This document shows positions 383 through 49,246 of a stretch of 64,000 nt of DNA, in pieces (within the stretch, counting starts at the first letter, position 1; the number at the start of each line of letters is the position of its first letter). The DNA comes from Bacteroidota bacterium (GTDB lineage Bacteria > Bacteroidota > Bacteroidia > Chitinophagales > LD1). The stretch lies in assembly GCA_947475165.1 (NCBI GenBank), contig CANJLD010000003.1:62001-126000 (forward strand), written 5' to 3'. The position numbers and the translations under genes are program-made. The notes under the pieces are model-generated. The model did not search any database and had not been told where the DNA came from. It saw only the letters and a program-made list of their open reading frames with translations.

Positions 383-2197
383 ATGACCTCCGAAGAGTTT
401 AAATCTTATCGCGAAACACTTCCCGGCCAGCCGGGCATTTACAAATACATCAGCGAGCAGGAAGAAATTATTTACATAGGCAAGGCGAAAGATTTGAAGA
501 AGCGCGTGAGTTCGTATTTCACGAACAATATGCACAGTAACCGCATTAAGCGGATGATTTTCTTCATTCATAAAATTGAATTTGTAATTGTAGATACCGA
601 GCAGGATGCTTTTCTGTTAGAGAATTCGCTCATCAAAAAATATCAGCCGCGCTACAACGTAATGCTGAAAGATGATAAGACTTACCCTTTCATCTGCATT
701 AAGAAAGAACCTTTTCCGCGCGTATTCTTTACGCGCAGAGTTATAAAAGATGGCTCAGAATATTTAGGCCCTTACACTTCGCAGTATAACGCCAAGATTG
801 TTTTGGATTTGATGAAAGAAATTTTTCCGCTGCGCACTTGTAATTTGAATCTTACAAAGCAGAATATTGAAGCCGGAAAATTTAAAGTGTGTTTGGAGTA
901 TCATTTAAAAAATTGTCTCGGTCCTTGCCAATCGTTTCAAACAACAGAAGATTATGATGAAGAAATTGTACAGATACGAAACGTACTCAAAAGCAATTTT
1001 GGTTCGGTAAAATTTTATTTAAAGAAGAAGATGGCAGAATACGCTGCCGATATGCAATTTGAAAAAGCTGAGGAGTTTCGTCAAAAGATTGAAATACTTA
1101 CCGGTTACGAAAACAAGTCCACTATAGTTAATCCGAAGTTGACGGACATTGATGTATACGGTTACACCGAAAACGAAACAGCCGCGTTTATGAATTATCT
1201 GAAGATTGTAAACGGAACGGTGGTGAAGACAAGAGCAATGGAAGTAAAGCGCGTATTAGATGAAACGCGCGAAGAACTTTTGCTACGCGCCATCATCGAA
1301 CACTCGATGGAAGAAACAGAACCTGCGCATGAAATAATTGTTCCGTTCGAAATTGATTTTCCGTTTGAGCAGATAACACTCACCGTTCCGCAGGCAGGAG
1401 ATAAAAAGCGATTACTTGACTTGGCTGTAAAGAACGCCCTTTACATGCGTCAGGAACGCGTAAAGCAAAACATGACTTCGGAGGAAAAGAAACCGGCTTT
1501 CCGCATTATGAAAACGCTGAAAGAAGATTTAAAACTGAAAGACCTTCCGGTGCATATCGAATGTTTCGATAATTCAAACATTCAGGGAACCAATCCGGTT
1601 AGTGCTTGTGTGGTTTTTAAAAATGCGAAACCATCTAAGAAAGATTACCGCCACTTCAATATTAAAACCGTAGAAGGTCCCGATGATTTTGCTTCCATGC
1701 ACGAAGTAATTACGCGCAGATACAAACGCATGATGGAAGAAGAACAACCGCTTCCACAACTCATTATCGTAGACGGAGGCAAAGGACAACTGAGCAGTGC
1801 AGTAGATGCATTGAAACAACTTGGCATTTACGGACAGATTCCCATTGTGGGAATTGCAAAACGGTTGGAAGAAATTTATTTCCCAGAAGATACCCTGCCG
1901 CTTTACATCAACAAAAAATCTGAATCTCTTAAGTTGATTCAACGTATGAGAGATGAAGCACATCGCTTTGGTATTACGCATCATCGCCTGCGCAGAAGTA
2001 ACTCATCCCTCAATTCTGAATTGGTGCAGATAAAAGGAATTGGAGAAAAGACTTTTGAGTTACTGATGAATAAATACCGGAGCGTGAAGAAGCTGAAAGA
2101 AATTTCTTTAGAAGAATTAACCGAAGTAGTAGGAAAAAGTAAAGCAAAAATCGTTCAGGAACAGCTATCATTGCGCGCAAATCAAAACCCAACATGA
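383..2197 (+). CDS. uvrC: Excinuclease ABC subunit C
   Basis: UvrC makes the dual incisions around bulky lesions in UvrABC nucleotide excision repair. At 604 aa it is full family length. The GIY-YIG nuclease that cuts 3' of the lesion is at the N-terminus (GIYKYI...YIGKAKDLKKRV, about residues 17-45). A UVR motif for UvrB contact lies near residues 210-240 (FEKAEEFRQKI). The RNase H-like 5' nuclease core is around 390-490, with the segments HIECFDNSNIQG and IIVDGGKGQL supplying acidic residues. A helix-hairpin-helix tail (IKGIGEKTFELL) binds DNA. The ATG lies 3 bp after the PBP stop. The stop overlaps the next gene by ATGA, indicating translational coupling. Confidence 0.97.
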   Translation: MTSEEFKSYRETLPGQPGIYKYISEQEEIIYIGKAKDLKKRVSSYFTNNMHSNRIKRMIFFIHKIEFVIVDTEQDAFLLENSLIKKYQPRYNVMLKDDKTYPFICIKKEPFPRVFFTRRVIKDGSEYLGPYTSQYNAKIVLDLMKEIFPLRTCNLNLTKQNIEAGKFKVCLEYHLKNCLGPCQSFQTTEDYDEEIVQIRNVLKSNFGSVKFYLKKKMAEYAADMQFEKAEEFRQKIEILTGYENKSTIVNPKLTDIDVYGYTENETAAFMNYLKIVNGTVVKTRAMEVKRVLDETREELLLRAIIEHSMEETEPAHEIIVPFEIDFPFEQITLTVPQAGDKKRLLDLAVKNALYMRQERVKQNMTSEEKKPAFRIMKTLKEDLKLKDLPVHIECFDNSNIQGTNPVSACVVFKNAKPSKKDYRHFNIKTVEGPDDFASMHEVITRRYKRMMEEEQPLPQLIIVDGGKGQLSSAVDALKQLGIYGQIPIVGIAKRLEEIYFPEDTLPLYINKKSESLKLIQRMRDEAHRFGITHHRLRRSNSSLNSELVQIKGIGEKTFELLMNKYRSVKKLKEISLEELTEVVGKSKAKIVQEQLSLRANQNPT

Positions 2198-3231
2198 GTT
2201 CATTTAATAAAGAGCAGATTCTCGAAGACCTGAAAAACTGGAATTCGATTGTGCGGAAATACCAGATACCAAGTACGAAAGATGCCATCATTCAATTAGC
2301 AAACAGTTTCAGTTTTTATTTAGTGTTGCTCGCGTTTCAATTTTACTTATACGACAAATCAATTTTGCTTTCAGCGGCAGTTGCCATCCTCAACGGATTT
2401 ATCCTCGGAAGAATTTTCATCATTCAACACGATTGCGGACATAGTTCGTTTACCAAAAGCAAAACTGCGAATAACATTATCGGAACCATCTGCAGTATCT
2501 GCACATTGATTCCTTATAAATATTGGGCAAAGAACCACAGTTTTCACCACGCGCATAACGGACAATTAGAGTTCAGTGATATTGGTGATATTGAATGTCT
2601 TTCTACAGAAGATTATGCAAAGTTAGGATGGAAGAAAAAATTATGGTACCGCATTTACCGCAACCCGTTTTACCTTTTCACCATTGGCGGATTTATTTAT
2701 GTGGTAGTTTATAACCGGTTCGCGTTTTTGGATAACGATTATCTTAAGAAAGTAAAGAAGAGCGTAAACATCAGCAATGCGATGTTTATATTGCTGTATG
2801 CCGGCTTCGCTTATCTGATAGGGCCGGGAAGATTTTTGATTGTGCAGTTCATTAACCTGTTATTTTTCGGAGCGTATGCGCTTTGGTTTTTTTATATCCA
2901 GCACCAGTACGAGCACATTTACAAAAGCGGAAAGGAAAACTGGAACTATGTAATTGCTGCTATGAAAGGGAGCACTTATTACAAGTTACCTTGGATTGGT
3001 CATTGGCTGACCGGTAACATCGGGTTTCATCATATTCATCACTTATCTCCGGCAATTCCCAATTACAATTTGCGGAAGGTGCATCGCGAGAACCCGATTT
3101 TTCAGAAGCATACGAACACCATCACTTTCTGGCAAAGTCTGAAAACCGTACAGGCAAATTTGTGGGATGCACAACGCCAGAAAATGGTTTCATTCCGCGA
3201 ATACAAACGGAATAAAAAGCAGCAATCCTAA
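2194..3231 (+). CDS. Membrane fatty-acid desaturase (acyl-lipid type)
   Basis: An integral-membrane di-iron desaturase that introduces a double bond into membrane acyl chains. All three histidine boxes are present: HDCGH (about residue 80), HSFHH (about 115) and HHIHH (about 278), the HxxxH/HxxHH/HxxHH set of the acyl-lipid (Delta12/DesA-like) family. Hydrophobic pairs between the boxes fit the four-helix topology. At 345 aa the length is normal. The start overlaps the uvrC stop (ATGA), so it probably belongs to the PBP-uvrC transcription unit, although no functional link to DNA repair is apparent. Regiospecificity cannot be read from the sequence. Confidence 0.92.
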   Translation: MSSFNKEQILEDLKNWNSIVRKYQIPSTKDAIIQLANSFSFYLVLLAFQFYLYDKSILLSAAVAILNGFILGRIFIIQHDCGHSSFTKSKTANNIIGTICSICTLIPYKYWAKNHSFHHAHNGQLEFSDIGDIECLSTEDYAKLGWKKKLWYRIYRNPFYLFTIGGFIYVVVYNRFAFLDNDYLKKVKKSVNISNAMFILLYAGFAYLIGPGRFLIVQFINLLFFGAYALWFFYIQHQYEHIYKSGKENWNYVIAAMKGSTYYKLPWIGHWLTGNIGFHHIHHLSPAIPNYNLRKVHRENPIFQKHTNTITFWQSLKTVQANLWDAQRQKMVSFREYKRNKKQQS

Positions 3232-34156: not shown

Positions 34157-35389
34157 ATGACAGAAGTAAAAGTTCCCGCACTTGCCGAATCAATCACCGA
34201 AGTAACACTCAACCGTTGGTTGGTGAAGGATGGAGATTATGTAGCACTTGACCAACCGCTATGCGAATTTGAAACAGACAAAGCCTCGCAGGAATTGCCA
34301 TCGCCCGCTGCCGGAGTAATTAAGTTGATTGCAAAAGACGGAGATGATTTGAAAATTGGTGCGCTGATTTGCAACATAGATGAGTCTGCAGCAAAACCGG
34401 CAGAAGAAAAAAAGGCAGAAACGAAAGTTGAAGAGCCGAAAAAAGAAGAACCTAAAAAGGAAGAAAAGAAAGAACCTGTTGCAGATAAAGAAAAAACTTA
34501 CGCTACCGGAACTCCATCACCTGCTGCTAAAAAAATACTGGATGAAGGCGGAGTGAAGAATACGGATGTGAAAGGAACCGGTGTAAAAGGCCGAGTTACT
34601 AAAGAAGATGCCATCTATGCCGTTCGTGGAAAAGCAAATATGCCTGTGCGCGAAGCATTCAGTCGCAACGAGAGAAGAGAGAAAATGAGCCGGTTGAGAA
34701 AAACTATTTCAGAAAGACTGGTTTATTCAAAGAACTCAACCGCCATGCTTACCACTTTTAACGAAGTGGATATGACAGCCATCAACACTATTCGCGCTAA
34801 ATATGGCGACAACTTCAAGAAGAAGAATGAAGTGAGCCTCGGCATTATGAGTTTTTTCACTAAGGCAGTTTGTCTGGCCTTAGAGAAATTTCCGTCAGTA
34901 AATGCTTCGATTGAAGAAAATGAAATCGTGTATCACGACTACGCGGATGTTTCTATAGCAGTTTCTACTCCTAAAGGTTTGGTTGTGCCGGTTATCAGAA
35001 ACGCAGAATCTCTTTCGCTGGCGGGTATTGAAAAGAAAGTGAAAGAACTAGCTATTAAAGGTCGCGATGGGTTGTTGACCATGGAGGAAATGACAGGTGG
35101 AACATTTACCATTTCAAATGGCGGAGTGTTTGGTTCATTAATGAGCACACCAATTATCAATCCTCCGCAAACATCCATTTTAGGAATGCACAAAACACAG
35201 GACCGCCCAATGGCAATTGACGGACATGTGGTCATTCGTCCGATGATGTATGTGGCATTAAGCTACGACCACCGCGTAATTGACGGAAAAGAATCGGTTA
35301 GCTTTTTAGTAGCGGTAAAAGATTTTTTGGAGAACCCGCACAAAATGTTGCTGGGTGCCGACCCGGTTGATTTATTGTTAGATATTTGA
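34157..35389 (+). CDS. sucB: 2-oxoglutarate dehydrogenase E2 (dihydrolipoyl succinyltransferase)
   Basis: 410 aa. The lipoyl domain (1-77) carries the lipoylated lysine in ETDKAS (Lys42). A Lys/Glu/Pro linker follows ([12 protein letters not shown]), then a peripheral-subunit-binding domain ([15 protein letters not shown]...[10 protein letters not shown], about 118-156) and the catalytic acyltransferase domain ending in [11 protein letters not shown] (the HxxxDG active site, about residue 372). The [24 protein letters not shown] opening (abbreviated) and single lipoyl domain are typical of the SucB type. The E3 gene lpdA follows within 60 bp, but no E1 (sucA) gene is adjacent. Confidence 0.94.
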
Positions 35390-35448: not shown

Positions 35449-36852
35449 ATGAGTAAATATCAGGTAGTGGTTATTGGTTCGGGTCCGGGTGGTTATATCG
35501 CGGCTATTCGTTCGGCACAGTTAGGTATGAAGGTGGCTATTATTGAAAAGTATGATGTGCTGGGAGGCACCTGCACCAACGTGGGTTGTATTCCTTCTAA
35601 GGCTTTGCTCGATTCATCGGAGCATTTTCATAATGCTGAACATGCGTTTGAAGGCCACGGTATAGCTACTAAAGGTTTGAGTTTCGACTTTACAAAAATG
35701 GTTGCCCGCAAAAACGGAGTGGTGAAAGCCAACAACGATGGCATTGCGTTTTTGATGAAGAAAAACAAAATTGATACTTACTACGGCACCGGTTCGTTTA
35801 TTTCGAAAAGTAAAATAGCGGTTACCAACGCGAAAGGCGAAGTAACCGAACTGGAAACTGAAAAAACAATTATTGCCACCGGTAGCAAGCCAACTAAACT
35901 TCCGTTTCTTCCTATTGATAAAAAACGGGTGATTACTTCTACCGAAGCATTGACTTTAAAAGAAGTGCCAAAGCACTTGGTAATTATTGGTGGTGGAATT
36001 ATTGGCGTTGAACTCGGCTCGGTTTATCTGCGCCTTGGCTCGAAGGTTACTGTAATAGAATTCCTCGATAAAATCATTCCGTCAATGGATGATGATTTAG
36101 GAAAAGAATTGCTGCGCGTATTGCGTAAACAAGGCATGGAGTTTATGCTTTCTACCAAAGTAATCGGTGCAACTACTAAGGGAAAAGAAGTAACTGTTAC
36201 GGCAGAAAATAAAAATGGAGAAAAAGTAGAATTGAAAGGCGATTACTGTTTGGTAGCCGTTGGTCGTGTGCCGTTTATCGATGGTCTTGCTTTAGATAAA
36301 GTAGGATTGAAAGCCGATGAGCGCGGACGCATTGCAGTGAATGATAATTTAGAAACACCAGTTGTCGGAATTTATGCCATTGGCGATGTAGTGCGCGGAG
36401 CAATGCTGGCGCATAAGGCAGAAGAAGAAGGCGCGTTTGTGGCAGAAGTAATTGCAGGACAACATCCGCACATCAATTACAATTTAATTCCCGGTGTAGC
36501 TTATACCTGGCCCGAAGCTGCAAGTGTGGGTGCAACTGAACAAGAGTTGAAACAAAAAGGTGTGGCATACAAGAGCGGTAAATTCCCTTTCCGTGCTTTA
36601 GGGCGCGCACGTGCCAGTGGAGATTTGGATGGCTTTGTAAAAGTGCTGGCTGATAAAACTACCGATGAAATTTTGGGCGTGCACATTATTGGTGCGCGCG
36701 CTGCCGATTTAATTATTGAAGGCGTAGTGGCAATGGAATACCGCGCTAGTGCCGAAGATATTTCGCGCATGAGCCACCCTCATCCAACATATACCGAAGC
36801 GTTTAAAGAAGCTTGTTTGATTGCTACTGATAACAGGGCGTTGAATATGTAA
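35449..36852 (+). CDS. lpdA: Dihydrolipoyl dehydrogenase (E3)
   Basis: 467 aa flavoprotein disulfide reductase that reoxidises dihydrolipoyl groups of 2-oxoacid dehydrogenases with NAD+. It has an FAD-binding GSGPGGYIAAI (10-20), a redox disulfide in GGTCTNVGCIPS (Cys42/Cys47), a NAD-binding GGGIIGVELGSVYLRLG (about 180-196), a second FAD motif AIGDVVRGAMLAHKAEEEG (abbreviated) and a catalytic His/Glu in HPHPTYTEAF near the C-terminus. It lies 59 bp after sucB, across a dispersed repeat, and is followed by a clear terminator. Confidence 0.97.
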   Translation: MSKYQVVVIGSGPGGYIAAIRSAQLGMKVAIIEKYDVLGGTCTNVGCIPSKALLDSSEHFHNAEHAFEGHGIATKGLSFDFTKMVARKNGVVKANNDGIAFLMKKNKIDTYYGTGSFISKSKIAVTNAKGEVTELETEKTIIATGSKPTKLPFLPIDKKRVITSTEALTLKEVPKHLVIIGGGIIGVELGSVYLRLGSKVTVIEFLDKIIPSMDDDLGKELLRVLRKQGMEFMLSTKVIGATTKGKEVTVTAENKNGEKVELKGDYCLVAVGRVPFIDGLALDKVGLKADERGRIAVNDNLETPVVGIYAIGDVVRGAMLAHKAEEEGAFVAEVIAGQHPHINYNLIPGVAYTWPEAASVGATEQELKQKGVAYKSGKFPFRALGRARASGDLDGFVKVLADKTTDEILGVHIIGARAADLIIEGVVAMEYRASAEDISRMSHPHPTYTEAFKEACLIATDNRALNM

Positions 36853-36876: not shown

Positions 36877-36907
36877 ATCCGAAGTTTAAACGCTTCGGAT
36901 TTTTTAT
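36877..36907 (+). terminator. Intrinsic terminator after lpdA
   Basis: ATCCGAAG-TTTAAACG-CTTCGGAT followed by TTTTTA. Confidence 0.88.
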
Positions 36908-36923
36908 TTAACCACCACACCAC

Positions 36924-38240
36924 ATGAGCAAAACAGTTACCGAAGAAAATATCCTTACGCGCTTTATTGTTCCCATATTTCTTGTTTGTGTAACTCCGTT
37001 TTTTGCCATGCTAATGTGGCATACTAATGTGGAGTTGGATGGCTCGTTCCTGAATTTATGGAATGAAATTACCACCAAAGGTTTTTTGACTGTCATCAAA
37101 GAAGTTTGGTTTTCGCGCTTTTTCGGAACGGCTACGGCTTGGAAAATTATTGGTGTGTTTGCTGTGCTGCAATTGTTGCTCATGCGCGTTCTTCCCGGTA
37201 AAAAATTCACCGGCACTATTACCCCAATGGGAAACTTACCGGAATACAAAGACAATGGATTGGCTTCTTACATCATTACTTTCATTCTCTTCTTTGTTTG
37301 CTCGCTGGGCTTGAATTTTTTTCCCCCTTCCATTGTTTACGACCACTTTGGCGATATTCTTGGCGCGTTGAATTTCACGGCATTGGCATTTTGCGTGTTT
37401 CTATATTTTAAAGGAAGGTTCTTTCCTTCTTCCACCGATAACTCGCACACCGGTAACTTTATTTTCGATTATTACTGGGGAACCGAATTGTATCCGCGTA
37501 TTTTAGGTTGGGATGTAAAGCAATTTACCAATTGTCGCTTTGGTATGACCGGTTGGGCAGTAGCGGTTACTTCATTTGTATTTGCCCAAAAAAATATTTA
37601 CGGCACGGCCGATTGGTCTATCATTATTTCTGCAGCCCTGCTGGTTATTTATCTGTTCAAATTCTTCATTTGGGAAAGCGGCTACATGCGCTCGATGGAT
37701 ATTATTGTTGACCGCGCAGGGTTTTATATCTGCTGGGGCTGCTTGGTTTGGGTGCCTGCAGTGTATACTTCACCGGTTATGTTTATGGTGAAGCATCCGG
37801 TTGGTTTGCCTTTGTGGGCTGCTGCTTTAATTTTTACAGCAGGCGTAGGAGCCATCTTTATGAATTACTGGGCAGATAAGCAGCGTCAGGATGTGCGTGC
37901 TAAAAATGGCGATACAAAAATATGGGGCAAGGCACCGGTGCTTATTCACGCCACTTATACTACCGAAACCGGTGAGCAGAAAGAAAACTTATTACTTGCC
38001 TCCGGTTTTTGGGGTATCAGCAGTCACTTTCATTATTTACCGGAACTGGCTGCTGCGTTTTTGTGGAGCTGTGCCATAGGCTTTGGTTATCTGATGCCTT
38101 TCTTCTACTTTTTGTTTCTGTGTATTCTGCTTACGCATCGCGCATTTAGGGATGAAGCAAAATGCAGTAAAAAATACGGGAAGTATTGGGAAGAGTATCG
38201 CAAACTTGTTCCGTACAAAATTGTTCCGGGTATAGTTTAA
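36924..38240 (+). CDS. Sterol Delta7-reductase (DHCR7/ERG4-ERG24 family) homologue
   Basis: 438 aa, about nine membrane segments. The C-terminal half matches eukaryotic 7-dehydrocholesterol reductase motif by motif: WGTELYPRILGWDVKQF (DHCR7 has a G-E-x-NPRIG-x-x-DFK block), DRAGFYICWGCLVWVPAVYT (the family's GW-GxxVW-PYLYT), IWGKAPVLI, LLASGFWGISSHFHYLPEL (SGFWGxxRHxNYxGDL) and LLTHRAFRDEAKCSKKYGKYW, with the ending VPYKIVPGIV. The last block is the ERG4/ERG24 family signature. The reaction in eukaryotes is NADPH reduction of the C7-C8 double bond of sterols. It starts 16 bp after the lpdA terminator and runs into the SDR gene with a 6-bp gap. Bacterial function and substrate are unproven. 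Confidence 0.85.
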   Translation: MSKTVTEENILTRFIVPIFLVCVTPFFAMLMWHTNVELDGSFLNLWNEITTKGFLTVIKEVWFSRFFGTATAWKIIGVFAVLQLLLMRVLPGKKFTGTITPMGNLPEYKDNGLASYIITFILFFVCSLGLNFFPPSIVYDHFGDILGALNFTALAFCVFLYFKGRFFPSSTDNSHTGNFIFDYYWGTELYPRILGWDVKQFTNCRFGMTGWAVAVTSFVFAQKNIYGTADWSIIISAALLVIYLFKFFIWESGYMRSMDIIVDRAGFYICWGCLVWVPAVYTSPVMFMVKHPVGLPLWAAALIFTAGVGAIFMNYWADKQRQDVRAKNGDTKIWGKAPVLIHATYTTETGEQKENLLLASGFWGISSHFHYLPELAAAFLWSCAIGFGYLMPFFYFLFLCILLTHRAFRDEAKCSKKYGKYWEEYRKLVPYKIVPGIV

Positions 38241-38246
38241 GCAGCA

Positions 38247-39131
38247 ATGAGTAAAAAGAAGCTCATCATCACCGGTGCATCGGGTTTTCTCGGTTATCAT
38301 TTACTGAGAGTGGCTTCTGTTGATTGGGAAGTTTACGGCATTACTAATTCAAAGAGTTTTTATTTTGGAAATGCTACAGCTATTAACTGCAACATCCGCA
38401 ATTACATTGAACTTGGAAATTTTATAGATGATATTGAACCGGATGCAATAATTCATGCAGCGGCCATTGCCGATGCCAACTTTTGCGAGCAGAATAAAGA
38501 GTTGAGTTATGAGGTAAACGTAGAAGCCACAAAAAATTTGGCAGGTATTTGCTGCGATTTTCATATTCCTTTTGCGTTTACTTCTACCGATTTGGTGTTT
38601 GATGGCAAGCAGGGAATGCATAAAGAGAACGATGCGAAGAATCCTGTGAGTATTTATGGTGAGCAAAAAGCTGTTGCGGAAGATGAGGTGCTTCTTATTT
38701 ATCCTGAAGCGACTGTGTTCCGTTTGCCGTTAATGTTTGGTGAACCGGCAGCAAGTGCATCAAACTATTTGCAGAAATTTATTTTGCAGATAAAGAACGG
38801 AGAGAAGGCTTCTCTCTTTCACGATGAATACAGAAGCGTATGCGGAGCAAGGAGTATTGCAGAAGGAATTCTGAAACTATTGAATGAAAAAGGCATCATT
38901 CATTTAGCAGGAAAAGAAAAATTATCACGTTACGAGTTTGGTTTAAAAGCAGCTAAAGTATTTGAGTTAGACGAATCGCTTCTTCTCTCCTGTTCGCAAA
39001 AAGATGTGAAGATGGCAGCACCGAGACCGGCAGATGTATCGCTCGATATTTCAAAAGCGCTAAGTTTGGGCTTTGTCCCGCTAAGCGTTGATGAAGAATT
39101 GAATTTGATTGCCACCGGTAAATATTTGTAA
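38247..39131 (+). CDS. RmlD-like extended SDR (NAD(P)-dependent sugar-nucleotide or related reductase)
   Basis: 294 aa. N-terminal Rossmann motif ITGASGFLGYHLL (9-21; GxxGxxG), the HAAAIADANFCE segment and an active-site Tyr/Lys in YGEQKAVAE (about 137-145; YxxxK). This is closest in shape to dTDP-4-dehydrorhamnose reductases (RmlD), but no other rml genes are near. It is cotranscribed with the DHCR7 homologue upstream and overlaps the next gene as TAATG. Given the upstream gene, an NAD(P)H-dependent step on a lipid or polycyclic substrate is an alternative to sugar metabolism. Confidence 0.82.
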   Translation: MSKKKLIITGASGFLGYHLLRVASVDWEVYGITNSKSFYFGNATAINCNIRNYIELGNFIDDIEPDAIIHAAAIADANFCEQNKELSYEVNVEATKNLAGICCDFHIPFAFTSTDLVFDGKQGMHKENDAKNPVSIYGEQKAVAEDEVLLIYPEATVFRLPLMFGEPAASASNYLQKFILQIKNGEKASLFHDEYRSVCGARSIAEGILKLLNEKGIIHLAGKEKLSRYEFGLKAAKVFELDESLLLSCSQKDVKMAAPRPADVSLDISKALSLGFVPLSVDEELNLIATGKYL

Positions 39132-40147
39132 TGAAAAAAAATCTGTTTCTCCTCTTTCTGCTTTTTTCTTCCTCTGTATTTGCACAAAAAGAAGAACCGC
39201 TGCTTAAACCAAGCCGTGTAATTTTCTATAACGTAGAAAACCTGTTCGATACAATTGATGACCCTGCTATTAACGATGCAGAATATCTTCCTTCTTCTAA
39301 AAACGAATGGAATACCAAGAAGTATAAGACGAAACTGAACCACTCGGCTAAAGTTTTTGCAGCTATGCTTGATACTATTCAGCCATTGGTAATTGGTATG
39401 AGCGAAATAGAAAATATAAAAGTGCTACAAGATTTAATTGCGCAACCGGCTCTTAAAAAATTCAACTTCGGTATTGTTCATCACGATTCACCGGACGAGC
39501 GGGGAATTGACGTAGCGTTTTTGTACAATAAAGATATAGTGGAAAGTATTTTTGATGCCACGCTTAAAGTTGATTTGGGCAATGGCGATAAAACACGCGA
39601 CATTCTTTATTTCAAAGCATCGGTATCGGAAGAAATGAGTGTCTGGTTTTTTGTAAACCACTGGCCCAGTCGCAGAGGGGGCGCAGAAGAAAGTGATGAC
39701 AAACGGATGATTGCTTCGAAAGTATTGAAGAGCAAAATTGATAACCTGTTGCAAGGTGAGCCTTTTGCCCGCGTAATTGTAATGGGCGATTTTAACGACA
39801 ACCCCGGTGATGCCAGTTTGAAAAATCTTTCACCGGTAGTTGATAAAAAACAGAAAGCACAACCACTGGTGAATCTGATGCTTCCGTTGCAAGGCAAGAA
39901 AGAGTTTACCCTTAAATACAAAGCTGAGAGCGACATCTTCGATCAGTTTATTGTTTCGCTTAATTTGCTTGACCCGAAGAATCAATATTTCATCCGCAAT
40001 TCTTCAGCGTCTGTTTTCAAACCGCGTTGGATTCTTTACAACCACAAAACTTACGGGCTAATTCCTAACCGTACCTTTACAAATGGCAAATGGGTAAACG
40101 GTTACAGCGACCATCTGCCGGTTTATTTCGATTTGCTGGTTAAGTAA
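39131..40147 (+). CDS. Secreted endonuclease/exonuclease/phosphatase-family protein
   Basis: 338 aa with a signal peptide (MKKNLFLLFLLFSSSVFAQ). The EEP fold is shown by VIFYNVENLFDTID (metal site Asn/Glu region), SEIEN (Glu), DVAFLYNK, the NHWPSRRGG loop, VMGDFNDNPGD (catalytic Asp/Asn pair) and a terminal GYSDHLPVYFDL (Asp-His). These are the standard Mg2+-dependent phosphodiesterase residues. The substrate could be nucleic acid, phospholipid or inositol phosphate. It is translationally coupled (TAATG) to the SDR gene and convergent with queD. Confidence 0.9.
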   Translation: MKKNLFLLFLLFSSSVFAQKEEPLLKPSRVIFYNVENLFDTIDDPAINDAEYLPSSKNEWNTKKYKTKLNHSAKVFAAMLDTIQPLVIGMSEIENIKVLQDLIAQPALKKFNFGIVHHDSPDERGIDVAFLYNKDIVESIFDATLKVDLGNGDKTRDILYFKASVSEEMSVWFFVNHWPSRRGGAEESDDKRMIASKVLKSKIDNLLQGEPFARVIVMGDFNDNPGDASLKNLSPVVDKKQKAQPLVNLMLPLQGKKEFTLKYKAESDIFDQFIVSLNLLDPKNQYFIRNSSASVFKPRWILYNHKTYGLIPNRTFTNGKWVNGYSDHLPVYFDLLVK

Positions 40148-40604: not shown

Positions 40605-41804
40605 TTAATCAAACTCCTGATACTCCCATACGGCAGTTACAAAGTAGTCGTTATCTTCTATCCATCCGTTATTGGTTAAAATGCAAAGACGTAAAGCATC
40701 GCCCTTGCCGAAAGTCCAGTTGGCAGGCGCTAAAAATTCGTAATACTGTCCGTTATCGAGGTTTACATAAGTGCCTCCGGTAAAAGTAGGGACAGGATTG
40801 GTGCCGTTGGTTTGGTTTACGCTTAAGCCAAAAGTAAAGTTGCTGAGGTCGTAACCGTTGGCCGAATTGTAATCAGCAATGCGGATAATTACCTTTACCA
40901 GTCTACCGGCATAAGGTGTAGCCCAGGTTTGCTCATAGTTAAAACTGCCGTTTAGATTATCGTCACTACCATCGCCCCCCGAGTTCGGCATCCAGATGCG
41001 TTGGTTACCCTGTCCGCTGTAATTAGGCAAATTAAAAGTATGGTGTGTAACAGAGCGCACATAACCAAAAATAGTTCCCTGCACCTGCAGCGCTGCGTTT
41101 GGCGAAGAAGTGCCGATGCCCACATTGCCTCCGTTGTTATAAATGTTGCTGCTGTTGGTTACCCACTGGATGCCGTCCCAATAAGTAGTGTTGCCGGGGG
41201 CAGTGCCGTTAGGTAACGAACCTTTGGCTCCGGTAGCCCCTGTTGCACCGGTACTACCGTTGGCTCCTGTAGCTCCATCATTTCCTGTGGCACCGATGGC
41301 ACCTGTTGCGCCACCACCGGCACCGGTAGTGCCTGTGGCACCCGTGGCACCGGTAGCTCCATCTTGTCCGTTAAGCCCTGTTGCACCGGTAGCCCCCTGC
41401 GGACCCACATTGCTGTTAGCTGCATACAAAGCATAGGGCACACTAAGCAGCTGCGAAGTTCCCATATCGATAAATGTTCCGCTGTTGTTGATGTCAGTTT
41501 CTACCTGCAAATATTTAGCTCCCACACCCCAGTTTACGATGGCAAGGTTGCCCAGTGTTCCTATCTGCACATTTACTAAACCGAACTGGTTGGCGGTGGT
41601 GGTTTGCGTTTCGTTAAACACCACCGTACCGGTGGGCGAAACATCATGAATACTGAAACGAAGTTTAACTGGAGTGTTGTTAGCCACCGGTGTTCCGCTG
41701 CTGTTGCGCACTACTGCCTGGTAATTCATTTGCTGGGGCGATTGTGCAAAAGTAGATGTAATGCTCACCAAACAAACCGCGGTGTAGAGTAGAATATTTT
41801 TCAT
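40605..41804 (-). CDS. Secreted collagen-like protein, short paralogue (fibre locus)
   Basis: I chose the ATG at 41804 ([12 protein letters not shown] signal peptide, 399 aa) over 41834. Residues about 20-130 form a domain shared with the next two proteins ([20 protein letters not shown] ... [11 protein letters not shown] ... [12 protein letters not shown]). A collagen-like Gly-X-Y stretch follows (about 132-205, dominated by GATGAT), then a [18 protein letters not shown] 'tail fibre' linker and a globular C-terminal domain of about 150 residues with many aromatic beta strands. No T9SS sorting domain is evident. It is the last of four minus-strand genes of the fibre locus and is probably a surface fibre or adhesin subunit. 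Confidence 0.85.
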
Positions 41805-41877
41805 AAAATAAAGTTTGTCAGAATTTAAAAGCAAGGTAAATTTTAGCAGCCAGAAAAGAAATTTCGGGCAGAAAATA

Positions 41878-41911
41878 AAAATCCCCTTACATTTTCATGC
41901 AAGAGGATTTT
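41878..41911 (-). terminator. Terminator after the 110-aa secreted protein gene
   Basis: AAAATCC-CCTTACAT-TTTC-ATGCAAGA-GGATTTT (interrupted stem of 7, 3 and 3 bp). On the minus strand it is followed by a T-rich run. Confidence 0.65.
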
Positions 41912-41917
41912 GATATT

Positions 41918-41943
41918 AAGTCCCTTGAGAGGATTTTGGGTGG
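41918..41943. repeat. Divergent AAGTCCCCTTTAGGGG-family element
   Basis: AAGTCCCTTGAGAGGATTTT followed by GGGTGG, 5 bp downstream of the stop codon of the 110-aa gene, next to its terminator. Confidence 0.5.
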
Positions 41944-41948
41944 TAATT

Positions 41949-42281
41949 TTACTTCGTCAGTTTATCTTCTTTAACCACTCTAACCGGTTTGCTTTTGCTA
42001 CCGGTAGTAGTAGCCGGAATTGCCGAAGATGCAGGCTTTGTTGTATTTTGATTAGCCGCATCTGATTTACCGGTTTCCGGTTTCATATAATTTACCGTAC
42101 CCGAAGCCGGTTTTACTCTTGTGGTAACCTGTTGCTGTGCTGGTTTCGCGGTATTTACTTCGGAAACTGTACCAACTGATGGAGCCGTTCTTACCGGTGT
42201 TGGTTGTGTTTCTACTTCTGTTGTTTGTGCAAAAGCAGTAACAGCAAAAAGCAAGAAAGCGGGAATCAATATCTTCTTCAT
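41949..42281 (-). CDS. Small secreted Thr/Pro/Lys-rich protein of unknown function
   Basis: 110 aa. A clear signal peptide (MKKILIPAFLLFAVTAFAQ) is followed by a low-complexity, probably disordered chain rich in Thr, Pro, Ser and Lys (TTEVETQPTPVRTAP; ends VRVVKEDKLTK). There are no cysteines or conserved motifs. It lies 20 bp downstream of the 503-aa collagen-like gene on the same strand and has its own terminator, so it is likely cotranscribed with that gene. It could be a periplasmic linker or glycosylation substrate; this is an inference. Confidence 0.7.
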   Translation of the reverse strand: MKKILIPAFLLFAVTAFAQTTEVETQPTPVRTAPSVGTVSEVNTAKPAQQQVTTRVKPASGTVNYMKPETGKSDAANQNTTKPASSAIPATTTGSKSKPVRVVKEDKLTK

Positions 42282-42301
42282 AAGTATTCGGTTTAGCCGT
42301 A

Positions 42302-43816
42302 TTATGGTTTAACAATCAATAATTCTAAATGCGATTGAAAGCCGCCTGTAGCTCCCGCCAACTGAATGTTGGTAGTGCCGGTAGGTCCTGCATGCGCTCC
42401 ACGCACATCAATAGTGTGCGAACCGGCAGTAAAGTCACCGGCATAAGCAATAGCCCATTGCCCGTAAGCGAAAGTAAGGCTGGTAGCACCATCTAATATT
42501 GAAACGCGTTGAAGTTTAGTGCTGGCTGCTCCGTCAATAAAAATTTCTAACTGTGCCGTGCAATCAGCAAACGAACCTAAGTTCAATGCGGTACCGAAGG
42601 CGTTAGCCACAATATGCCATGTTTCTCCGGCAGGTACAGTAAATGAATAAGTACAGTTAGGCAACTGCACATAAGTAATAGCACCAGTAGGTGCCTGTGT
42701 TAAAGCAGTTAATGAAGCAAGGTTTACAGTAGCTGTGTTATTAGCAGCTGAAGAACCAGTTGCACCGGTAGCACCGGCATTACCTTGTGCGCCCTGCGCG
42801 CCCTGTGCACCTTGCGGTCCCTGAATACCTTGTATACCCTGATTCCCCTGATTTCCCTGTGGTCCTTGTGCGCCTGTAGCACCTGCAGGTCCTTGCGGTC
42901 CTGTTGCGCCATCTGCTCCTGTAGCACCTGCAGGTCCTTGCGGTCCCGTTGCACCATCTGCTCCATCGGCACCGGTAGCTCCTTGTGCGCCTGTAGCACC
43001 ATCTGCTCCATCAGCACCGGTAGCTCCCTGTGCGCCTGTAGCACCGTCTGCTCCATCAGCACCGGTAGGTCCTTGTGGTCCTGTAGCACCATCTGCTCCA
43101 TCAGCACCGGTAGGTCCTTGTGGTCCTGTAGCACCATCTGCTCCATCAGCACCGGTAGGTCCTTGTGGTCCTGTAGCACCATCTGCTCCATCAGCACCGG
43201 TAGCTCCCTGTGCACCAGTTGCACCGGTAGTACCCGCAGCCCCCGTAGAGCCTTGTGCGCCTGTTGCACCATCGGCACCTGCAGCTCCGGTAGCACCTGT
43301 TGCTCCATTAGCCCCCGGTACGCCAGCCGCTCCCTGAGGACCGGTTGCTCCGTTAATTCCCGGAACACCTTGTGGTCCGGTAGGTCCGGTACTTCCAATA
43401 GGGCTGTTGCCAGCATATAAGGCGTAAGGAACGCTTAGTAATTGCGAAGTTCCCATATCGGTAAAACTGCTGCCACCGGCCACGTCAATTTCTACCTGTA
43501 AATATTTAGCACCGTTGCTCCAGTTTACAGTAGCAAGGTTCGAAGTTCCCCCAATGATTTGTGTAATTAAACCAAACTGATTGGTTACCGCTGTATTGGT
43601 TTCGGTAAATACTACCGTACCGGTTGGTGAGCCATCATGTATATTGAAACGCACGGTAATGTTTGTTCCGCCCACAATAGGGTTTCCGGCAACATCACGC
43701 ACAATTGCCTGATAGTTTAATTTTTGCGGTGCCTGCGAAAATGCAGGAGAGAAAAACGATAAAACAAAAAGGAAAACAAATAGTTTCCTGACAGTAGTGT
43801 AAAGATTCGCTAGCAT
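42302..43816 (-). CDS. Secreted collagen-like protein with 15-residue perfect repeats
   Basis: I chose the ATG at 43816 ([22 protein letters not shown]; about 503 aa) over 43849. The domain shared with its neighbours ([21 protein letters not shown] ... [14 protein letters not shown]) spans about 25-140. A collagen-like Gly-X-Y region follows (about 145-350), including seven 15-residue [15 protein letters not shown]-type units. The C-terminal domain of about 145 residues ([20 protein letters not shown]...) is beta-rich and is not recognised. There is no T9SS sorting domain. The long plus-strand ORF over this gene (42785-43420) is an artefact of the Gly-X-Y codon pattern. Confidence 0.87.
42906..43220. 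repeat. Seven 45-bp tandem units in a collagen-like gene
   Basis: Units start at 42906, 42951, 42996, 43041, 43086, 43131 and 43176. The three from 43086 are nearly identical over 45 bp (GCACCATCTGCTCCATCAGC...), indicating recent duplication; each encodes 15 residues in frame. Confidence 0.9.
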
Positions 43817-43912
43817 GGTAAAATGTTTTAGTGTGTAAAGTGTACGCAATGTAACGGTAAGAAATTAAAAAAGAGAATTTTTCAAACGAAAATAAAAAGG
43901 GAACATTAAGGT

Positions 43913-49246
<5,334 letters not shown>

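Follow-up and report, generated by a model that had tools for sequence, protein, structure and literature searches.

A DHCR7-type sterol reductase gene in a Bacteroidota genome that appears to lack a sterol front end

Bacterial genes for sterol tailoring have been interpreted as acquired by amoeba-dwelling pathogens to interfere with the cholesterol of their hosts. The 64,000-nucleotide stretch of Bacteroidota DNA analysed here, i.e., the window, encodes at 36924..38240 (+) a protein that the initial annotation took for a homologue of sterol Delta7-reductase (DHCR7), heading an operon, with no other sterol gene seen in the window. What is this protein, and on which substrate would it act in such a bacterium?

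Identity of the protein and its cofactor site

The gene starts with ATG, appears intact and is present in a single copy in its own genome. Its product is a polytopic membrane protein of 438 aa that we assign to the DHCR7-type sterol Delta7-reductases of the ERG4/ERG24 family on the basis of Pfam, the PDB, a structural model and a tree. The Pfam profile ERG4_ERG24 (PF01222) matches with an E value of 6e-66 and 223 bits (cut-off 27), and the match is full length, spanning residues 25-437 of the protein and positions 21-431 of 432 in the profile. Thus, the signature first noticed in the C-terminal half is real and is not confined to that half. None of the NCBIfam models match the protein. A sequence search of the PDB returned the Delta14-sterol reductase MaSR1 of Methylotuvimicrobium alcaliphilum (PDB code: 4QUV; E 6e-54; 29% identity) and only one other entry, 9L5R, which is likewise a Delta14-sterol reductase. 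An AlphaFold (AF2) model built from an alignment of 43 relatives has a mean pLDDT of 91.3. In Foldseek, the best match of this model is again 4QUV (TM 0.79/0.88, E 1e-21), and the runner-up is a weak match to ICMT (TM 0.33/0.46, E 0.1). Since 4QUV is far ahead and the ICMT match is weak, an ICMT-like reading, which the initial annotation had named as the competing placement, does not apply, and a search of the protein for an ICMT Pfam match found none.

A scan of named genomes gave 55 loci encoding relatives with 43-92% identity. They are found in Bacteroidota MAGs, Chlamydiae/Parachlamydiales, Legionella- and Coxiella-type Gammaproteobacteria, Verrucomicrobia, Myxococcota and one spirochaete MAG. 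In a maximum-likelihood tree the 55 proteins form one clade (support 100/100), and MaSR1, fungal ERG24 and the Delta14-like proteins of other Bacteroidota all fall outside it; the tree was built without eukaryotic DHCR7, and the clade is linked to DHCR7 through the published placement of its amoebal members (PMC2667531). In that work, by Moliner et al., the Legionella drancourtii, Protochlamydia and Coxiella proteins were placed with the plant Delta7-reductases at 52-54% identity (PMC2667531), and in a later study a Naegleria protein adjoins the amoebal-bacterial DHCR7 group (PMC3220658). The window protein lies within a Bacteroidota clade of 18 rows (100/100), and the Legionellaceae, Coxiellaceae and Parachlamydiales loci group with it at 52-58% identity. 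Support is poor for the deep branching order among the DHCR7-type proteins. The tree as it stands hints that Bacteroidota gained the gene twice, but an AU test does not reject one common Bacteroidota clade (p = 0.25). The phylogeny and the fold thus bear out the proposed homology, and we are nearly certain that the protein is DHCR7-type. Judged from its sequence, it probably also has Delta7-sterol reductase activity. Viral relatives were sought in IMG/VR by three scans (protein, alignment and DNA motif) and none was found. An apparent fusion of DHCR7 to an ORF of 1271-1476 aa in two Myxococcota loci (L097/L098) was put down to spurious open frames in GC-rich DNA and dropped.

Conservation was computed on an alignment of 43 DHCR7-type proteins, the window protein included, and 63 residues are invariant across it. 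Six of these (F181, D182, G186, E188, L189 and P191) fall in a conserved family block, FDYYWGTELYPR, at residues 181-192 (codons 37464..37499, +). The motif DRAGFY at residues 263-268 (37710..37727, +) is also encoded by the forward primer for the L. drancourtii Delta7-reductase gene (PMC2667531), and the best match of this primer in Legionella-type loci is at the equivalent position. Alignment to MaSR1 places the cofactor loop, SGFWGISSHFHY, at residues 360-371 (38001..38036, +) and the motif HRAFRD at residues 405-410 (38136..38153, +). MaSR1 shares the fold and most cofactor-site residues with the window protein: Y241, D257, R323, W352, H357, R395, D399 and Y407 (MaSR1 numbering) are identical. 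The proposed catalytic Tyr (MaSR1 Y241) is Y243 and the conserved Asp (D257) is D259, both of which are invariant in the clade.

The initial annotation would have doubted the enzyme if NADPH-binding residues were lost. There is no general loss, but the picture is mixed: MaSR1 R395, a residue of the NADPH pocket (PMC4951196), is kept as R406, and two other positions have changed. H370 aligns with MaSR1 N359; in human LBR, the residue corresponding to N359 is required for NADPH binding (PMC4951196). Since His is found here in 55/55 members, the change is a feature of the clade and not damage; MaSR1 K319 is similarly replaced by Arg in the window protein and the whole clade. S367 aligns with MaSR1 R356, beside the NADPH site, where 47/55 clade members have Arg and the window protein and seven others (8/55) have Ser. 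We take this position to be human R404. The human variant R404C is a pathogenic change close to the NADPH site (PMC5796090). As far as can be read from the alignment, S367 is the sole feature that could weaken or alter activity.

Gene neighbourhood and sterol pathway genes

Upstream of the DHCR7 gene are two housekeeping genes, for 2-oxoglutarate dehydrogenase E2 (34157..35389, +; NCBIfam sucB above cut-off) and dihydrolipoyl dehydrogenase E3 (35449..36852, +; NCBIfam lipoamide_DH above cut-off). Between the E3 gene and DHCR7, a consensus scan finds a terminator-like hairpin with a T run (36877..36900, +), which suggests that DHCR7 begins a separate transcript. An RmlD-like SDR gene follows after 6 bp (38247..39131, +; Pfam RmlD 167 bits, below the NCBIfam rmlD cut-off, with a far weaker 3-beta-HSD match), and its stop is overlapped by one base by the start of a gene for an EEP-family (Exo_endo_phos_3) hydrolase (39131..40147, +; Pfam PF19580, 322 bits). 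The genes proposed to form an operon with DHCR7 do follow it closely, but this adjacency is kept only in a subset of relatives: they are near DHCR7 in 10/17 Bacteroidota loci and absent in 7/17, and the SDR-EEP pair stays together. Both look like housekeeping genes, with no functional link to DHCR7 seen.

In same-genus genomes without a cyclase, the SDR gene directly follows DHCR7 in 6/6 (the window at 38240-38247, L051, L055, L056, L059 and L060), compared with 0/7 of the cyclase bearers examined; this may be chance, as only two subclades are represented. In three relatives (L052, L054 and L067) a cytochrome P450, whose closest PDB match is plant LUT5, stands between DHCR7 and the SDR gene. 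In the PDB it is nearest to P450s of the carotenoid type, not to CYP51. Recurrent neighbours gave no pathway clue either and are regulators, transporters and housekeeping genes. In other phyla the neighbours of DHCR7 are likewise unrelated genes, and no sterol importer or sterol-specific neighbour gene was identified. Elsewhere in the window there are three collagen-like proteins of 409, 515 and 1770 aa with Gly-X-Thr-type repeats (40605-49225, -), a 45-bp tandem repeat in this collagen-like region (42878-43212), and a membrane fatty-acid desaturase (PF00487) gene downstream of uvrC (2194-3231, +).

The genome of the window (G000; 3.88 Mb in 45 contigs, 99.72% complete) was searched family by family, and stretches of its sequence were read. 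Profile searches found no match for a sterol/hopanoid cyclase (PF13243), squalene epoxidase (PF08491) or squalene/phytoene synthase (PF00494), and EBP had no match. The initial annotation saw no squalene cyclase or other sterol gene in the window, and in the whole genome these searches likewise found neither of the two enzymes it had proposed looking for, squalene epoxidase and oxidosqualene cyclase. The organism seems unable to make its own sterols. The genome does have ten FA_hydroxylase genes of the sterol-desaturase superfamily (loci L126-L142) and four P450s, one of which is closest in the PDB to bacterial/plant carotenoid-type or BM3-type P450s. Ten FA_hydroxylases are many for the order. 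Families nearly without DHCR7, such as f75, are equally rich, so a tie between DHCR7 and FA_hydroxylase number was dropped as undiagnostic. Considered as sterol desaturases, these proteins give weak matches to ornithine-lipid hydroxylase and have no match in the PDB.

The relatives are different. Among 399 genomes of the order, 24 have close DHCR7 orthologues, full-length or partial (G550, with a 64% fragment only, is not counted). Twenty of the 24 belong to the window's family, and orthologues with 66-92% identity are common in its genus and family. A full-length protein resembling oxidosqualene cyclase (OSC), 53-68% identical to the relatives' cyclase P0002 (L159:8384-10543), is present in 25 genomes of the order, though in a few as fragments, and with three further weak matches ignored. 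Six of these (G421, G453, G481, G496, G510 and G538) are of the same genus as the window. Thus, the orphan setting is not genus-wide, since the genus includes genomes with sterol-synthesis genes.

In G453, the cyclase adjoins a squalene/phytoene synthase (SQS; 167 bits) and a squalene epoxidase (SE; 305 bits), and homologues of both are next to the cyclase in G481, G538, G421, G449 and G462; these partners were read in some of the cyclase-bearing genomes only. All three genes fit into about 5 kb. Against human lanosterol synthase the G453 cyclase reaches 746 bits, versus 135 against squalene-hopene cyclase. Tyr, His and Ile, the residues diagnostic of cycloartenol synthase in Arabidopsis (PMC7060231), are present at the corresponding positions in 9/9 order-level cyclases aligned. 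The cluster of G449 also contains an HMG-CoA synthase and a FAD_binding_4 protein, and that of G462 an HMG-CoA reductase. Clustered SQS, SE and cycloartenol-type OSC genes occur at loci of uncultured Bacteroidota of the order (L155-L163; e.g., L159:5598-10543), where they probably encode a de novo sterol pathway.

In more distant Bacteroidota (f39 and f53), cyclase and epoxidase-like domain are joined in one fusion protein of 1139-1176 aa (L165:6174-9701, L166:7468-10959, L167:9152-12568), encoded near a Delta14-like reductase. The f39 cluster (L165) also has a Rieske oxygenase and a P450, and the f53 one (L166) a sterol methyltransferase. A second family of ERG4/ERG24 proteins, with about 30% identity to the window protein, is found in 25 genomes of the order. 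At loci L106-L118 and L121-L124 this protein has about 360 aa and is often next to a short-chain dehydrogenase. Its substrate may differ, because the positions of MaSR1 Y241 and R398 are mostly Phe and Asp.

Cyclase distribution, selection and the candidate substrate

Across the order, 12 genomes have both DHCR7 and the cyclase, 12 DHCR7 only, 13 the cyclase only and 362 neither, i.e., OSC is present in 12/24 DHCR7 genomes versus 13/375 others (Fisher p 3e-10, with counts of related genomes that are not independent events). Within the window's family the numbers are 11, 9, 6 and 4, with p = 1. Because the association vanishes there, shared ancestry can explain it order-wide. On the DHCR7 tree, the genomes lacking the cyclase are the window's genome and its nearest relative (the pair G000-G535), a group of four (L055/L056/L059/L060), and G531. 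The simplest reading of this pattern would be that the cyclase was lost repeatedly while DHCR7 stayed.

The window gene and its nearest orthologue, in G535, both from cyclase-lacking genomes, give a dN/dS of 0.043 at a dS of about 1.1, which matches the 0.042-0.044 found between cyclase-bearing pairs. Thus, DHCR7 is under purifying selection where endogenous sterol is not expected.

We suggest that the lineage has retained the protein as a tailoring enzyme for the reduction of Delta5,7-sterols of outside origin, and we give this reading a probability of roughly 60%. It would be a membrane-embedded, NADPH-dependent Delta7-reductase of the type found in plants and amoebal bacteria. NADPH would reach the enzyme from the cytosol and the sterol from within the bilayer, as in the structure-based view derived from MaSR1 and SRD5A2 (PMC7591894). 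Reduction of the C7-C8 double bond would then turn a Delta5,7-sterol into a Delta5-sterol, e.g., ergosterol into brassicasterol. The lineage may once have had a sterol front end of squalene synthase, squalene epoxidase and a cycloartenol-type cyclase, the genes that many relatives keep. With this front end gone from the window's genome, DHCR7 would persist as a stand-alone enzyme whose role is to modify sterols taken from protists, algae or fungi. Here we infer both the direction of loss and sterol uptake. Organisms that could supply such substrates do exist: in the amoeba Acanthamoeba castellanii, Delta5,7,22-sterols make up about 95% of the sterols (PMC5711494). Of the substrates first proposed, a host or dietary sterol is favoured over a bacterial polycyclic or isoprenoid compound, since squalene/phytoene synthase, epoxidase and cyclase are all missing from the genome, and we consider an exogenous sterol the likelier substrate in this organism. 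More tentatively, this freshwater Bacteroidota family may make cycloartenol-derived sterols with enzymes resembling those of plants and amoebae, with some lineages being sterol auxotrophs that dropped the front end and use DHCR7 to finish borrowed sterols.

Other readings have to be set against this one. The organism could make sterols by a normal endogenous pathway, in which DHCR7 would act as it presumably does in relatives and whose SQS-SE-OSC cluster fell into an assembly gap. A single gap might hide all three genes given their spacing in relatives, and the six same-genus genomes named above do have the cyclase. We consider this unlikely, since the assembly is 99.72% complete in 45 contigs and the cyclase is also missing from the nearest relative and from four genomes of a second subclade. 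It is about as doubtful that the substrate is a bacterial isoprenoid or polycyclic lipid instead of a sterol. The ten FA_hydroxylases and four P450s show that other lipid-modifying families are present, and several phyla bear DHCR7-type genes without sterol-gene neighbours; yet with no squalene/phytoene synthase or hopanoid/sterol cyclase there is no known route to polycyclic triterpenoids or carotenoids in the genome, and the strong conservation with DHCR7-type proteins suggests that a sterol pocket is retained.

The enzyme could also bind sterols with a shifted specificity, e.g., for another ring or side-chain double bond, through changes such as S367. This would fit the six-member subclade that carries Ser at this position, as well as Coxiella CBU1206 of the same superfamily, which yields ergosterol from precursors in yeast and was read as broadly specific (PMC8787468). 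Since the rest of the DHCR7-type pattern (H370, R321, DRAGFY and the IWG...YTT..GE insert) is widespread in the clade, we regard such a shift as improbable. Finally, the absence of the upstream pathway genes could mean that DHCR7 is a decaying, functionless remnant. This is very hard to reconcile with the intact ORF, the low dN/dS over so large a dS and the maintenance of the gene in two subclades without a cyclase. The reduction of exogenous sterols by a retained DHCR7 is thus the best reading.

Relation to known systems and biological meaning

DHCR7-type proteins in amoeba-associated bacteria and the sterol cyclase in Bacteroidota are known already. L. drancourtii, Protochlamydia amoebophila and Coxiella burnetii (CBU1158) have members of the same clade with DRAGFY that are mostly orphan enzymes. 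In contrast, the window's lineage is a Bacteroidota group with genomes of 3-6 Mb, known mainly as MAGs from lakes and bogs, with no evidence of intracellular life and relatives that often have a cyclase. The literature searched contains no demonstration of Delta7 activity for any bacterial DHCR7-type protein, and that of CBU1158 is untested (PMC8787468). Fluviicola taffensis and Eudoraea are Bacteroidota with a sterol cyclase, like the relatives of the window (PMC4919349). That study mentions no Delta7-reductase, whereas the order studied here combines cycloartenol-type cyclases with, in part, DHCR7. No report of DHCR7 in Bacteroidota was found in the open-access journal papers searched. What is new is the presence of DHCR7 orthologues across the genus and family, a genome without the front end, relatives with the cyclase, and purifying selection where the cyclase is missing.

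The closest functional parallel is eukaryotic. Phytophthora capsici does not synthesize sterols, and it keeps and needs its DHCR7 to convert recruited ergosterol to brassicasterol (PMC8984297). PcDHCR7 is kept in a sterol-auxotrophic lineage; its activity is proven, whereas that of the window enzyme is predicted. If the auxotroph reading is true, the lineage would be a bacterial parallel to Phytophthora. The gene is kept by selection in lake and bog Bacteroidota with no obvious intracellular life, with or without the synthesis genes. If the enzyme is active, the family would be a natural comparison for why a bacterium retains one sterol-editing step and a testbed for bacterial dependence on scavenged sterols. 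The finding also matters for freshwater studies in which sterols serve as biomarkers of eukaryotes.
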